Virus record (IMG/VR): IMGVR_UViG_3300030329_003921
Span: 3,435 to 24,468 of that record
Direction: 5' to 3' (one strand)
DNA from: a virus
DNA length: 21,034 nucleotides
Shown: positions 7,940 through 21,034 of the stretch, one piece after another
How the letters are laid out: the number at the start of each line of letters is the position of its first letter
Position numbering within the stretch: the stretch's first letter is position 1
Notes under the pieces: model-generated
The model's database searches: none
Told to the model about the DNA's origin: nothing
What the model saw: only the letters and a program-made list of their open reading frames with translations
Position numbers and translations under genes: made by a program

Positions 7940-8647
7940 ATGCGTATTATGGTTGGAATTCCCACACTGGACAACGTCTATTGGAAGTTCTTTCTCCACA
8001 CCGTGCCGCTGATTGCGAAGTTAAAAACTAATCACCTTGTTTCGCTGTGTTGTGTGAATAGGTGTGCGATTGACAGGGCACGTGATATTACGGTGGAGAT
8101 TGCATTTAAGAAGGATTGTGACAGGATTCTGTTTATCGACGATGACACGTTGATCCCGGACGACACGTTCGAGAAGTTGAATCCTCTCTTGGATGACGAC
8201 AAAATTCTATCGGCTAGTGGAATCTCGTATCAACGAGGTCATCCTTTCTTGCCGATGGTGTATAAGTTCAAGGACTTTAAGTTCGAGAACATTGGACCGA
8301 AGTGGCACTCAAACCAACTTATACAGTGGCCCGACGAGCCGTTCAGAGTGTCCTGTAATGGTATGGGTGTGTCGCTGTTAGACGTCCACAAGATGCGAGA
8401 TATACCTAAGCCCTGTTTCTCACGTAACGGCCCTGGCACAGAGGATTTCTTCTTCTATGAAAAGGTCGCTGCGATGGGATACGAGGCTTGGGTTGATCCA
8501 TCAGTTAAGGCCACGCATATAGGTAACAGATCAGAAGTTACTTGTGAGAATCATTCTGAGTTTCGGCGTGAGAGTGTTCTAAAGGATGCTCAGTTGGTTG
8601 AAGACGAAGGCTCAGGGCGTGGCATGGTAATGGAGGCTGTGTTATGA
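7940..8647 (+). CDS. GT-A fold glycosyltransferase (family 2-like)
   Basis: The 235-residue protein shows a GT-A layout. MVGIPTLDN (4-12) starts the nucleotide-binding half. A conserved Asn/Arg segment (CVNRCAIDRARD, 38-49) follows, then the metal-binding acidic motif FIDDDTLIP (65-73; DDD at 67-69), an acceptor-side GTEDFFFYEKV (166-176), with the ED pair of GT2 enzymes, and a late His (THIG, 192-195). It would transfer a sugar from a nucleotide sugar in the cytoplasm. Lying 2 nt after the decoration gene and overlapping the methyltransferase by 4 nt, it probably glycosylates a virion protein or another phage-made acceptor. Donor and acceptor cannot be read from sequence. Confidence 0.85.
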   Translation: MRIMVGIPTLDNVYWKFFLHTVPLIAKLKTNHLVSLCCVNRCAIDRARDITVEIAFKKDCDRILFIDDDTLIPDDTFEKLNPLLDDDKILSASGISYQRGHPFLPMVYKFKDFKFENIGPKWHSNQLIQWPDEPFRVSCNGMGVSLLDVHKMRDIPKPCFSRNGPGTEDFFFYEKVAAMGYEAWVDPSVKATHIGNRSEVTCENHSEFRRESVLKDAQLVEDEGSGRGMVMEAVL

Positions 8648-9264
8648 ATAAGACGAAAGAAGATCCACGCAGGAAGTATGAGGTTCTATATCGAACCGCT
8701 GTGGGACTGCATTCGTTGGATGAAATAGCACGCATCCACAGGTTGTTGGATTCTGTTCAACCGGATCGTATATTGGAGTTTGGTACGGGTGGTGGAATGA
8801 TGACATCGGCTCTAGGTGAATGGGCCATGAGTTATCCCAACAAAACTGTACTGAGTATTGATAGGATTCAGGGATTGAACATGGAGACGATGTTGGATCT
8901 GGCCAAAATGCCTGTGATTACGGTTGTGGGTGATGAGTATGCAAGAGGTGTCAGGATGCTTATGGAAGCATTTCTGGAACCCGGCCAACCACATGTAACG
9001 CGGTTTGTTTATTGTGATGGTGGTAACAAGCCCCAAGAGATGCGACAATTTTCGAGGTTGCTCAGTCCGGGTGATTGTATTGCATGCCATGACTATGAGC
9101 GAACTCCAGAAGAAGACAAGAGATTTTATAATGTGAATCCTTACACGGAGCGAGTGTATCGCAAGCAACTTGATTCGCTTTTAGAAAATGGATTCAAATT
9201 CGTTGAAGGTGAAAGTAACATTGAGGAAGGATTACATGTTCTTCCCTTGATAAAGGATAAGTAA
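8644..9264 (+). CDS. SAM-dependent methyltransferase (class I)
   Basis: The 206-residue protein has SAM-binding motif I ILEFGTGGGMMTSAL (43-57), a following acidic strand end (VLSIDR, D73), and VYCDGGNKPQEM (122-133). The 'PGDCIACHDY' segment (142-151) is usual in Methyltransf_24/cephalosporin-hydroxylase-like enzymes, which often act on sugars or small molecules. ATG 8644 overlaps the glycosyltransferase stop by 4 nt, indicating translational coupling. The pair suggests a sugar is added and then O-methylated. DNA methylation is unlikely because no DNA-MTase catalytic motif (DPPY/NPPY or PC) is visible. Confidence 0.82.
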   Translation: MNKTKEDPRRKYEVLYRTAVGLHSLDEIARIHRLLDSVQPDRILEFGTGGGMMTSALGEWAMSYPNKTVLSIDRIQGLNMETMLDLAKMPVITVVGDEYARGVRMLMEAFLEPGQPHVTRFVYCDGGNKPQEMRQFSRLLSPGDCIACHDYERTPEEDKRFYNVNPYTERVYRKQLDSLLENGFKFVEGESNIEEGLHVLPLIKDK

Positions 9265-17500: not shown

Positions 17501-18229
17501 TCAACTGAGTATGGTAAGGTTGCATTTATGTATCATTATTTGCGTGACACGTGGACTCATTGGGAGCTTGGTGATGAAGTTAGTGCAGTTGGTACAGCAA
17601 GGCGTGGCGGGACTCTCGTCACTGGTCTTGACGATGATGGTAATCCTGCTGATGATAATACTCCTAGTCCCCTTTGCCTGCGTGTTAGCGATTGGCCACC
17701 TAATGAAGACGGGACGTGTCGGACAGTCGAGCAAATGTTCCCAGCACCGTGTGACGATCAAGGAGGAGCAAGGCTCAACGAAGTCGAATTCACAGGTGGT
17801 GGATTCGGTCCCGTCATGGGCACGGCGAGTGGAAAGTACATCGATCAATCAAACCTGACAGGGGATGATGCAGGCGTGCCGTTCTCGGCGTTTGTTGAAA
17901 CGGACATGAAACCGCTTGGAAGTTCTACAGGGTCGTTTGATCAGAGGGGTGTTGCGTATGGTGAGTTTGGTCGGATCAATGAAATTGAACTTCGTTACAA
18001 AGGAGGGCGTTTCACCCTTAGTTATAAAGTTGAAGAAGACGAACCGTGGCAACAAATAAAGACATTTGCTAAACAAGATAATCCTTCGGTAATCCGCCAT
18101 CCGTTTGACTTGGTTGCGAGGTTTATTGCGTTTAGAATTGATATCCCTGAGGATTCCTACAACACTGAAATAAGCGTACTAAGTATCACAGTACGTCCGT
18201 GGGGTTCACGACACTTAGATGGGAACTGA
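14597..18229 (+). CDS. Giant tail hub protein (P22 gp10-like) with inserted lectin-like modules
   Basis: The 1210-residue protein starts (1-60) and ends (660-1210) like the tail-stabilisation/tubular proteins of podoviruses (P22 gp10, T7 gp12 type). The start is 'QMPTGFTREVNNVTFNFGRF'. The last 550 residues form beta-propeller-like strands with 'YYHDHLVCAN', 'RIVWGDLLQDDF' and 'YFDRSIVIMDPIPTTAIWSF'. Between them are four jelly-roll modules resembling carbohydrate-binding domains: about 65-215, 261-410, 413-543 and 548-652. Modules 2 and 3 are related ('ADDGVKSSTFTTANDGVYM' versus 'ADDGIESDTFSLTSGTYYM'). The usual hub is about half this length, so the insertion is a large decoration that could bind host glycans. 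It overlaps the next gene by 11 nt. Confidence 0.78.
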   Translation: MPTGRQIALHPWDKGMDLLSEESQMPTGFTREVNNVTFNFGRFAKRPGYAKRRGSLTGVVTDLNLLANGSFLDWDDTPDDPDDWTLAGETSGTAEVSEVAFDELYGGTGNDAANFYSTVPTTLSISQNITSGITATNTYRFQAIVSEHGGGRGKLTITDNASVVLEQMLLDRVGVFTTSFVATTAAATSVTVKLEVNNTSESVITDFTVNEISVKETDTTVVPDRGFNLVKTPDFKAQWSQQAPIVVPTGSWTSIGSRTGSDLITNGGFENEPLDGWSVVGTGTIARNTTVLHTTGVLNSSTGSGLLQVSAADDGVKSSTFTTANDGVYMITGWVYPVDITSIQVLVRNGNDTVDLYDQSHTLTANVWNRIVVVFVEGAASGGANAYIQFDAGTRTSGSWYLDDIEVYKQGTAQDWTATGGATAVMISTGHPDRPGAFVTQQFTATTADDGIESDTFSLTSGTYYMLTVVYVPPSDEVSIAVRKGDDAGDEFDEALTGLTANTWAFYRKIFSATATGSSGKITIDSSTETSGTWYVSHVQLLALDNDTDWTFGSGWSWDGSEADATTSSADLEQTLSDLKAGTKYIVDYTVRGLSAGSVQPTLGGTAGTSRSTTGTNSYTEFITTPATLTDSKIKFTGTGFSGAIDNVGVYETSTSVGQFDGFTGDIEGELITGIKSFQDAGGNFVEAVFTNKHSLVHDPNTGEFHSLFELADTEERIQMFRTTLPSYMSMALVPDTTTAQPKLYFTNGLPFESSDSLDHTLYFTEGKLTTAETEDEVRANARINVDWFIDEGNFLGAKQIAYYHDHLVCANYNIDGTWFRNRIVWGDLLQDDFSKRQGDAGDQGSYILADARGELLRLIKLGDHMAIYFDRSIVIMDPIPTTAIWSFDTRVQGTGLLGPNAVTDIGGVHIFAGQDNVFLYDGGLHPRPIGDRIIQRFLGTIDARKKDRIVAQHIPERDQVIFYLPTVSTEYGKVAFMYHYLRDTWTHWELGDEVSAVGTARRGGTLVTGLDDDGNPADDNTPSPLCLRVSDWPPNEDGTCRTVEQMFPAPCDDQGGARLNEVEFTGGGFGPVMGTASGKYIDQSNLTGDDAGVPFSAFVETDMKPLGSSTGSFDQRGVAYGEFGRINEIELRYKGGRFTLSYKVEEDEPWQQIKTFAKQDNPSVIRHPFDLVARFIAFRIDIPEDSYNTEISVLSITVRPWGSRHLDGN

Positions 18230-18632
18230 TAGAAATAAACGGGAACTTATAAACTTACTCCATGTGCCGATGCCCATGATACCGCCGGGCTTGGATCCAC
18301 AATTGGCGTCGTATTTGCAAGAACTCACACGGACTATAGAAGAAAACTTACGCAGGGTGTTTGGTGGTGAAGCTGGAACTGGAACGCCCTACCATGCCGA
18401 AGTAATTGGGACTAACCATGCTCCGTTTTATGATTGTATTGTAAGGGAGATTCAGGCAGGCACGGACGCGGACTTGACCGTGGCTGATAATGCCCCAGTG
18501 TTGGATCTTATCGACTTGCATCACTTTGAGGAAACAATGAATGTGGGTGGCAAGCTTTTGTGTTGGGAACTTGGAACTAATTCGTATGTAGGCATACAGT
18601 ACTTTGGACGCAGCACGATTGGTTTACCGTGA
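18219..18632 (+). CDS. Small tail-associated protein of unknown function (137 aa)
   Basis: ATG 18219 lies inside the end of the tail hub gene. Residues 1-50 are helical and include 'PMPMIPPGLDPQLASYLQEL' and 'TRTIEENLRRVFGG', an arrangement typical of short trimeric coiled-coil attachment domains. The rest is beta-prone (VADNAPVLDLIDLHHFEETM, GGKLLCWELG). It could anchor the next adhesin to the tail. The family is not recognised. The stop overlaps the GTG start of the adhesin by 4 nt (GTGA), suggesting coupled, perhaps stoichiometric, translation. Confidence 0.7.
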   Translation: MGTDRNKRELINLLHVPMPMIPPGLDPQLASYLQELTRTIEENLRRVFGGEAGTGTPYHAEVIGTNHAPFYDCIVREIQAGTDADLTVADNAPVLDLIDLHHFEETMNVGGKLLCWELGTNSYVGIQYFGRSTIGLP

Positions 18633-19420
18633 CAACAATAAAAGATTTCTCAGATGGAAGTGGAGATTGTCTGTGTGGTGCAGTAAAGACATTCGCTACA
18701 TGGCACAAAGGTAATGAGATAGTTCAGTTTGATTCGGACCAGGGTTATTGGATTCCGGATGCAGTTTATGTTGTAGGTGATGCATGTACGTTTCAGCATG
18801 CATACAGTGGGGAGTGTTTGGTAGCGGATGTCGCAGGTCAAGGCTACACTCGAGCATATTGGGACAAGTCAGCAGAGCGAGCATATACGTGTGTTACAAC
18901 AACGACAACAACTACGACGACTACGACCACAACTACTACAACTACTACAACAACGACAACCACAACTACAACAACAACGACAACAACTACAACAACCACA
19001 ACAACCTCCGCTGCGGATGGAAGCTGTCCCAGTGATTGCAGTAGTTGTTCTTCTACTTACTCGGTTGAAACGGTTGATGATGGTTTAACAGCAGACTGTG
19101 ACGGATTTGTTTGTGCATCGGCTGTATTGACAAGATCAGGATGTCGTTGGGCAACAGCTATTCGCTATTGTGGGTTTAATCCCGGATGCTGGGCAATAAG
19201 CTGTTATGACCACGATAGTGATTCAACGAACAATTGGATTATTTCTTATGGATGCCCTGATCTGGACACTGTTACTGGTGGTTGCGGTTTCCTTGGCCTT
19301 GGGCCAGTAGCAGACAGTGGTGGTTGTCCGGGAACAGGAACTTACAGTGGGTTGCCCGTTGTTGATGATATTGCTTGCGATTGTACTGGCGAAACATCTT
19401 ACCATTTTGTGGTAACATAG
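18629..19420 (+). CDS. Cys-rich tail adhesin with 37-residue threonine tract
   Basis: The 263-residue protein has three parts. Residues 1-89 are a beta-rich domain with five cysteines and many aromatic residues (GYWIPDAVYVVGDACTF). Residues 90-126 are 37 consecutive threonines. Residues 127-263 are a Gly/Ser-rich domain with 14 cysteines, which could form disulfides after release from the cell. No signal peptide is seen. The tract resembles a mucin-type linker, and long Thr/Ser runs are classical O-glycosylation substrates. The following gene encodes a polypeptide GalNAc-transferase-like enzyme, which makes a modified virion adhesin plausible. The GTG start overlaps the previous stop, with no strong Shine-Dalgarno. 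Confidence 0.78.
   Translation: MTTIKDFSDGSGDCLCGAVKTFATWHKGNEIVQFDSDQGYWIPDAVYVVGDACTFQHAYSGECLVADVAGQGYTRAYWDKSAERAYTCVTTTTTTTTTTTTTTTTTTTTTTTTTTTTTTTTTTTTTSAADGSCPSDCSSCSSTYSVETVDDGLTADCDGFVCASAVLTRSGCRWATAIRYCGFNPGCWAISCYDHDSDSTNNWIISYGCPDLDTVTGGCGFLGLGPVADSGGCPGTGTYSGLPVVDDIACDCTGETSYHFVVT
18896..19006 (+). repeat. Poly-threonine coding tract (37 codons)
   Basis: All 37 codons encode Thr, using 19 ACA, 8 ACT, 6 ACG and 4 ACC. The mixed synonymous codons show it is not a simple DNA microsatellite. Purity is kept at protein level, so the threonines themselves appear to be selected. Confidence 0.95.
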
Positions 19421-19423
19421 AAT

Positions 19424-20632
19424 ATGTTTGAAGTAGAGTGTAAATATTGGAGCAGAGGAAACGCTGAGGATGGTGGCCTGTGCCAACTTGGATTGTTTGG
19501 TGGAAGTCCTTCGTTTGGTGTTTGTATTAATCATTGTGATAAATATCACGGGCCAAAACTGACATCACAACAGATATTGGAAGAAACGGAAAAAGGCTTG
19601 GGATTTCTTCCTAAGACTAAGGGACTCGCCGAGGCTGTTAAAAGGCAAGGAGCAAGATTGATGAAGGGACAGCCACTGGCTGTTTCTGGAGACGAAGCTG
19701 AACGACGCTGGAACATCTGCAAGGCCTGTCCGACTGGGCAGTTTCAACCCAAAGGAGACAGTAAGGGATCATGTAAGGTGTGCGGATGTGGGATGCACCG
19801 CAAAGTTCGCTGGGCCAGTGAGTGGTGCCCGGATGGACACTGGGGGAAGGATGACACGACATGTGTTCTTATATCGGCTACAATAAATGAACAGCATCTT
19901 AACGAGACAATCGAACAAGTGCAAAAGAGTGCTCGAGGTCAAGTAGAATTCCGGACACAATATGACACGTCGAACGAGGGATTGAGGGTGATACTGAACA
20001 GGCTCTCGATGCAAACTCGAGCGAAGTACCTGATGAAACTCGATGCACATTGTACGCTGAGTGATGGGTGGGACGAACAGATGAAGGCAGAATGTAGTGA
20101 GGGTACTCTGGTGTTTCCTTCGATCGTGGGAATGAATGACAAGTTTGAACTTACTGGACATCGTAACGGTCCGGCGTATCTAAACTCGGACTTAGTTGAG
20201 AAGTGGTGGAACACAGAACATACTAATGTGCGTCCCGCGATGGCTAACACGGGATGTGGGTTGTTTATGCACAGAAGTGACTTCGAAAAGTTGGGACGAT
20301 TCGACACACAGCTTGGACGGTACGGTGGGCTTGGGCCTGAGACCTCGCTGAAATTCTGGCTTAGTGGTGGTAAGCTTGTTTATCATCCAGGTGTGGTGTG
20401 TGGACACATTTATAAACGCAAGCCGGATCACGACACCACCGTACAGGACTTGCAGGATACGTACGCTCGGATTCGTCACAACACACACTTAGGACTGTGG
20501 CCAGAGCAGAAACATCACATTGGATGGCTCGTAGGAAAATTTGACCCAGTTCCTACATGGGACAAAACGATGATATGGACTACGCAACCGTCGTCAGACC
20601 GAGTGGAGTGGGTAAGTGAATACTATAGTTGA
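19424..20632 (+). CDS. Cys-rich domain fused to a GalNAc-transferase-like (GT27-type) glycosyltransferase
   Basis: The 402-residue protein has two parts. Residues 1-147 carry cysteines at 6, 20, 34, 38, 99, 102, 117, 120, 122, 135 and 147, probably zinc-binding (CKAC, CKVCGC). Residues 148-335 match the plan of polypeptide GalNAc-transferases. An NE at 155-156 and EGL...LNRL (185-194) lead to LDAHCTLSDGW (206-216), whose D207/H209 equal the DxH metal motif. 'NTGCGLFMHRSDFEKLGRFD' (275-294) and YGGLGPETSLKFWLSGGKL (300-318) correspond to the 'WGGEN.E.SFR.W.CGG' block. CGHIYKR (326-332) supplies the third metal ligand, H328. The usual eukaryotic ricin-type lectin is absent. The preceding poly-threonine adhesin is its obvious candidate acceptor. 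Confidence 0.8.
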   Translation: MFEVECKYWSRGNAEDGGLCQLGLFGGSPSFGVCINHCDKYHGPKLTSQQILEETEKGLGFLPKTKGLAEAVKRQGARLMKGQPLAVSGDEAERRWNICKACPTGQFQPKGDSKGSCKVCGCGMHRKVRWASEWCPDGHWGKDDTTCVLISATINEQHLNETIEQVQKSARGQVEFRTQYDTSNEGLRVILNRLSMQTRAKYLMKLDAHCTLSDGWDEQMKAECSEGTLVFPSIVGMNDKFELTGHRNGPAYLNSDLVEKWWNTEHTNVRPAMANTGCGLFMHRSDFEKLGRFDTQLGRYGGLGPETSLKFWLSGGKLVYHPGVVCGHIYKRKPDHDTTVQDLQDTYARIRHNTHLGLWPEQKHHIGWLVGKFDPVPTWDKTMIWTTQPSSDRVEWVSEYYS

Positions 20633-20670: not shown

Positions 20671-21034
20671 ATGAATGTGTTCAGAGTAACCAACCCGCAG
20701 GCAGTGGATTTAATCCGTGATCAATTATTGAACGATGACGGAGTAAGCCGTGCACAAACACAGATGGAACTCAAGGCATTTATGGAGAGCAATCCAGCGG
20801 ATTTGTTGTTTCTCCTAGCCACAGAAGAAGAGAACCACAAGGTCGAAGTAAGAGCATTTGTTATAGCGTGGATTCCGATGGGTCGGGATTATTTGTTTCT
20901 GCATCAGGCGTTTGTCGAACCGAAGTTTAGTGAAAAGTATCCGCATGTAAGTCGTAGTTTGTTTAGTCGTGTGGTTGCTTTTGCAGAAGGGAACGGGCTT
21001 AGGAGTGTGAGAGCCGAGACAACAAGAAGTCCTG
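20671..21034 (+). CDS. GNAT-like acetyltransferase (partial, cut by window edge)
   Basis: An open frame from ATG 20671 runs without a stop to the end of the window (121 codons). Residues 1-60 are helical. 'DYLFLHQAFVEP' and 'VSRSLFSRVVAFAEGNGLRSVRAET' look like strand beta-4 and the following helix of the GNAT fold. The acetyl-CoA signature cannot be confirmed because the C-terminus is missing. Small GNAT proteins are frequent in tail regions of environmental phages. With its neighbours, it could modify a sugar or a virion amine, but that is speculative. The ribosome-binding site is weak; AGGGA lies about 10 nt upstream. Confidence 0.6.
   Translation, partial: MNVFRVTNPQAVDLIRDQLLNDDGVSRAQTQMELKAFMESNPADLLFLLATEEENHKVEVRAFVIAWIPMGRDYLFLHQAFVEPKFSEKYPHVSRSLFSRVVAFAEGNGLRSVRAETTRSP

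Follow-up and report, generated by a model that had tools for sequence, protein, structure and literature searches.

Gene content of the locus

The DNA analyzed here (the window, 21,034 nucleotides) corresponds to 3435-24468 in an uncultured virus record of 44.4 kb and has the gene content of a tailed phage, with PHROG matches for terminase, portal, major head protein and a virion structural protein (phrog_3287). The relatives of the large terminase among phage records are all distant (below 60% identity). Downstream of the phrog_3287 gene, the plus strand carries a gene (18629..19420) for a Cys-rich protein of 263 amino acids with a stalk of 37 threonines, which we propose to be both a glycosylation acceptor and a virion component. 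Its GTG start and the stop of the gene before it share 4 nt (GTGA), and its own stop ends at 19420, 3 nt before the ATG (19424) of a gene on the same strand (19424..20632) for a soluble, 402-aa, GT27-like glycosyltransferase, the proposed polypeptide O-glycosyltransferase. Both the uninterrupted run of threonines in a Cys-rich protein and the 3-nt spacing had been reported in a first-pass annotation of this DNA, and both are borne out.

The poly-Thr tract occupies residues 90-126 (18896..19006, plus strand) and is encoded by all four Thr codons (ACA 19, ACT 8, ACG 6, ACC 4). Third positions depart from the majority base in 18 of 37 codons, as against none of the 74 first and second positions (Fisher 7e-11). 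Since Thr codons are mixed while first and second positions are invariant, it is the protein sequence that keeps the tract, and the 37-Thr run is maintained by protein-level selection, not by chance or replication slippage alone. Five cysteines precede the tract and 14 follow it, the latter in a C-terminal head (19007..19417, plus strand). This head resembles that of a poly-Ser protein adjoining a GT27-like gene in another phage contig (L150). This similarity has an E-value of 1e-6 in pairwise comparison and of 0.03 among 17,735 ORFs; given that a pattern scan found no homologues of the head, its likeness to the L150 protein and to one in L096 is only suggestive. No family model matches the 263-aa protein above threshold and, for this reason, the labels "tail protein" and "adhesin" derive from gene position only. 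Membership of the Pfam Mucin family (PF01456) was rejected, as the low-complexity match (E 1.6e-5) scored 25.3 bits, under the gathering cut-off of 34.7.

The gene overlapping the start of the poly-Thr gene (18219..18632, plus strand) encodes 137 amino acids and has no match in the Pfam and PHROG comparisons; it is probably a small virion or tail attachment protein. By eye, its stretch PGLDPQLASYLQELTRTIEENLR resembles the short helical N-termini of poly-Thr ORFs in other contigs (e.g. L090 and L092). Directly 3' of the glycosyltransferase gene, a GNAT-like acetyltransferase ORF can also be recognized by eye (20671-21034), extending beyond the window end into a short stretch of undetermined bases in the record. 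To the right of the window, the late region of the same genome (G000) includes a 2149-aa ORF (L443:2420-8869) that takes up a big fraction of the 44 kb and probably encodes an internal virion or ejection protein.

A second GT2-like gene (7940..8647, plus strand, phrog_1574) is located between the head and tail genes, together with an overlapping methyltransferase-like gene (8644..9264, plus strand, Methyltransf_23 2.5e-5). Their products might be, respectively, a glycan extension enzyme and a sugar O-methyltransferase, and the two genes possibly belong to the same glycosylation route as the poly-Thr protein and its neighbor. No donor-sugar genes were recognized. Hence, the system need not be self-contained, as had been proposed, since the 7940-9264 genes may also take part in it.

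Sequence and predicted structure of the glycosyltransferase

Comparison of the glycosyltransferase sequence with the PDB returned 15 matches, all of them polypeptide GalNAc-transferases, the best of which (E 2.9e-8) covers residues 170-335. An AlphaFold (AF2) model, with pLDDT mostly above 90, predicts a GT-A catalytic domain nearest to GT27 in residues 146-385 (19859..20578, plus strand). Its closest structure is GalNAc-T2 (Z 26.6, 2.4 A over 238 residues), and the top 29 entries of the structure comparison are all GalNAc-transferases, with Z-scores of 21.9-26.6. The next entry stands at 17.6, from which the other GT-A enzymes follow downwards, polysaccharide glycosyltransferases being at about 17. 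Sequence and model thus agree with the GT27-type assignment of the first-pass annotation, and the best structural matches are polypeptide glycosyltransferases, not enzymes acting on lipids or polysaccharides. The DxH, GGE-like and GH motifs noticed at that stage are likewise present. In the alignment to GalNAc-transferases, the predicted metal-binding DxH motif is DAH (D207-A-H209; residues 207-209, 20042..20050, plus strand), His328 of the GH motif (G327-H328; codon 20405..20407, plus strand) is the predicted third metal ligand, and the GGE-like stretch reads YGGLGPE. D207, H209 and H328 are nearly invariant among 48 relatives.

The phage enzyme departs from the animal enzymes in several respects. 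The third strand usual in GT-A enzymes is missing from it, as from its relatives in L123 and L125, and the nucleotide-site Asp is retained as D181; the reading of a broken gene was rejected, because these two relatives are equally shortened and the frame is open. The positions aligned with E334 and N335 of GalNAc-T2, which we take to be GalNAc-contacting residues, are L302 and G303. The protein ends at 402 aa, shortly past the catalytic domain, and hence has no ricin-type lectin domain; no membrane segment is apparent on reading the sequence. Given the absence of the C-terminal lectin domain and the change in the presumed GalNAc-contact residues, we term the enzyme, as judged from its sequence and model, GT27-like instead of filing it as a GT27 member, and treat GalNAc as no more than a possible donor sugar. 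Neither a tblastn comparison with 50,697 phage records nor two pattern scans over genome contigs revealed close homologues.

The N-terminal part (19424..19858, plus strand) carries a Cys4-like domain of the DUF6171 type, identified by tblastn (4e-12 to phage L001), PHROG (phrog_13558, 8.7e-7) and HMM comparison. In L001 the domain is free-standing (DUF6171 E 2e-4). It is fused, by HMM, to glycosyltransferases adjoining poly-Thr genes in L112, L030, L051 and L097, with DUF6171 itself matched in L001, L030 and L097, and these fusions involve both types of enzyme (A and B, below) found beside poly-Thr.

Recurrence of the poly-Thr/glycosyltransferase pairing

A scan of IMG/VR for 25 or more ACN codons in a row yielded at least 119 stretches. 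Among the stretches listed, ORFs with at least 20 Thr were kept and similar ones merged, leaving 65 clusters; a downstream gene was present in 46 of these and in 44 of the 56 clusters of the poly-Gly control set. A GT27-like profile, which took in three of the positives (L112, L109 and L032) as members or query seeds, matched within the next three genes at 12 of the 46 poly-Thr loci listed, in all 12 cases downstream and on the same strand, and matched none of the upstream genes at these loci and no gene of the control set. When a second profile (type B), built solely from members that do not adjoin a Thr-rich gene, is also considered, a glycosyltransferase of either type lies within three genes downstream, and never upstream, at 16/46 independent poly-Thr loci listed versus 0/44 poly-Gly loci (Fisher 5e-6; the contigs are to some degree related, and this and the other p-values are indicative). 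About 65% of the listed poly-Thr loci have no type A or B enzyme in the next three genes, some of them ending with the contig. A Pfam tally, independent of the profiles built here, gave the same orientation: PF00535 occurs in the first two places downstream of the listed poly-Thr genes in 17 of 84 genes, versus 2 of 79 upstream and 1 of 78 downstream of poly-Gly controls. The spacings between the poly-Thr and glycosyltransferase genes are often short (37, 38, 43, 52, 79 and 197 nt), the last corresponding to L079, in which a divergent enzyme with GalNAc-transferases as best matches follows a T42 gene. The pairing is, therefore, recurrent and non-random across phages.

In L084, a poly-Thr gene and its type B glycosyltransferase are followed by an ORF on the minus strand (147-710) that is GT29 sialyltransferase-like by eye. 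To this ORF we attribute the single GT29 match (2.1e-18) that Pfam detects in the 84 genes downstream of the listed poly-Thr loci.

Two enzyme families and serine variants

At least two glycosyltransferase families take part in the pairing. Type A, to which the window enzyme belongs, has 102 viral relatives by pattern scan, 80 of which were kept. Type B is recognized by the motifs MATYDDYDGV...DSHVL...FGGEE...HRFGRP, with at least 553 relatives and no match in the 50,697 phage records. Against PDB sequences, type B has no significant match to GalNAc-transferases, and only a weak one to TarP; the closest structures to its AlphaFold model are, nonetheless, GalNAc-transferases (Z 22.5, the next family being at 18.7). 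Among the longer type B proteins, a methyltransferase domain is added in L051 and L097 and a DUF6171 domain in L030 and L097. The large, multi-domain type B proteins of L030, L051 and L097 lie beside poly-Thr genes, and their sequences suggest a one-protein system that would both glycosylate and methylate.

The reverse test, starting from the enzymes, gave different results for the two families. A Thr-rich gene is present at 11/77 type B loci, in every instance (11/11) immediately upstream of the glycosyltransferase; eight of the 11 are not seed contigs, as compared with 13 Thr-rich genes among the 975 of the control loci (p 4e-5 for the eight). For type A, the immediately upstream gene is Thr-rich in 0/76 cases, a result that limits the pairing claim, and runs of at least 20 Thr occur near 2/80 GT27-like viral loci, both of them query seeds. 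The majority of GT27-like phage enzymes have no poly-Thr gene next to them, and many type A enzymes are found within larger glycan clusters. The co-occurrence that the first-pass annotation proposed as a check is thus far above chance from the poly-Thr side, and weak when approached from the GT27-like side.

Type A enzymes are also found next to serine tracts. Two phage contigs of very large size, L136 and L150, have a GT27-like gene adjoining poly-Ser proteins with runs of up to 56-88 residues. The poly-Ser codons of L150 include both AGY and TCN, two classes that cannot be interconverted by one silent change. Seven further GT27-like loci (L153, L160, L163, L166, L190, L130 and L140) adjoin Ser/Pro-rich proteins of the SPSVSPSASPS type. 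With Ser-rich genes included, hydroxyl-rich genes make up 10/133 of the genes adjacent to type A enzymes, against 23/849 of the distant ones (p 0.009) and 6/975 in the control. A scan for poly-Ser (TCN) runs yielded 7 coding clusters only, too few for use. Around the GT27-like genes of L136 (10702-12150) and L150 (7414-8988 and 10702-12531) we also observed Cys-rich families (MxFxRYxEGFDQCxPPxCP...), whose members differ in the presence or absence of a long poly-Ser tract.

Discussion

We consider it fairly probable that the poly-Thr protein and the adjacent glycosyltransferase form an acceptor-enzyme pair, in which a cytosolic GT27-like enzyme O-glycosylates the hydroxyl-rich stalk of the phage's own virion protein. 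According to this proposal, the poly-Thr protein would be a late virion protein, its Thr stalk joining the N-terminal part to the Cys-rich head, and would be co-translated with the soluble enzyme. The latter would move sugar from a nucleotide-sugar onto the Thr hydroxyls in the cytosol of the host, either ahead of assembly or in the course of it, giving rise to a stiff, hydrated, protease-resistant and mucin-like stalk on which the head is displayed. The DUF6171-type Cys domain would probably help in substrate recruitment, a role that in animal GalNAc-transferases has its counterpart in the lectin domain. Within this scheme, we infer transfer to the tract, the donor sugar, the virion location and the effect on the stalk.

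An enzyme acting instead on another virion protein, or on the Cys-rich head, as part of a generic virion-glycosylation module with the Thr tract as an unmodified linker, would be in keeping with the frequent lack of a hydroxyl-rich tract near type A and type B enzymes and with the many poly-Thr genes that have no such glycosyltransferase alongside. We nevertheless judge it unlikely, since the Thr-rich gene is immediately upstream of the type B enzyme wherever it was found (11/11), type A adjoins tracts as varied as poly-Thr, poly-Ser and SPSxS, and poly-Gly linkers show no association with these enzymes. Less probable still is a role in making or altering host or phage polysaccharide, be it for receptor masking or as exopolysaccharide, with adjacency reflecting mosaic insertion in a variable tail region. 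Cargo genes do build up in tail regions, and the Pfam and NCBIfam matches of the relatives include polysaccharide glycosyltransferases; such enzymes, however, rank clearly lower in the structure comparison (Z about 17), and a protein that reads as free of membrane segments, encoded 3 nt from a structural gene and consistently in downstream position, argues against this function.

The association could also stem from a shared genome type, Thr-tract phages being simply richer in glycosyltransferases with no substrate link. Indeed, GT2 genes are present in 23/49 whole poly-Thr records listed versus 3/50 poly-Gly records (2.66 versus 1.60 Mb), and part of the signal must hence be attributed to genome type. 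As a full explanation we find this very improbable, because it does not account for the strict downstream, same-strand and adjacent placement of the enzymes (12/12; 17/84 versus 2/79; 11/11), which argues for a substrate link. Returning to the acceptor-enzyme pair, the recurrence of similar pairings in many unrelated phages suggests that these phages sugar-coat their own particle proteins. The broader proposition, that many uncultured phages have a mucin-type O-glycosylation of their own, with homopolymeric Thr, Ser or Ser/Pro virion stalks modified by dedicated GT27-like enzymes from at least two families, seems to us evenly poised.

The animal and protozoan polypeptide GalNAc-transferases (CAZy GT27), which act on mucin Thr/Ser/Pro tracts, are the closest structural and sequence match of the phage enzyme, which shares with them the GT-A fold and the DxH plus His metal site, and has a candidate hydroxyl-rich acceptor encoded next to it. 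Unlike them, it is phage-encoded, cytosolic and one strand shorter, has changed residues at the presumed GalNAc contacts and carries a DUF6171-type Cys domain in place of the lectin domain. In Gram-positive bacteria, the serine-rich repeat adhesins (SRRPs) Fap1, GspB and SraP have dedicated Gtf enzymes encoded next to the adhesin. The phage pair is comparable in its homopolymer-like, hydroxyl-rich stalk and in the linkage to a glycosyltransferase gene across genomes, whereas its acceptor would be a virion protein and not a cell-wall protein, its enzyme is of the GT-A, GT27-like kind and not GtfA/GtfB, and accessory Sec genes were not seen in the window. By analogy, then, the pair is like the bacterial adhesins and their dedicated glycosyltransferases, and its enzyme resembles those of mucin synthesis. 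SRRPs are heavily O-glycosylated (PMC12355684). Glycosylated virions have been described in actinobacteriophages (Freeman et al. 2023, as cited in PMC13313380), where, according to the available portion of the citing article, phage-encoded glycosyltransferase and methyltransferase genes are likewise linked to structural genes; that portion does not mention a poly-Thr/GT27-like pairing. No published description of a phage poly-Thr/glycosyltransferase pairing was found in a collection of open-access papers.

If correct, our proposal would provide a function for the long runs of Thr and Ser found repeatedly in phage proteins from the environment, which are usually dismissed as low-complexity filler. 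It would also establish GalNAc-transferase-like polypeptide glycosylation in phages, with a bearing on the origin of the GT27 fold, and would supply small, soluble and self-paired sets of enzyme and acceptor, possibly useful for the production of mucin-like proteins in bacteria. Should the broader proposition also hold, many uncultured phages would have an equivalent, viral and prokaryotic, of mucin biosynthesis in animals.
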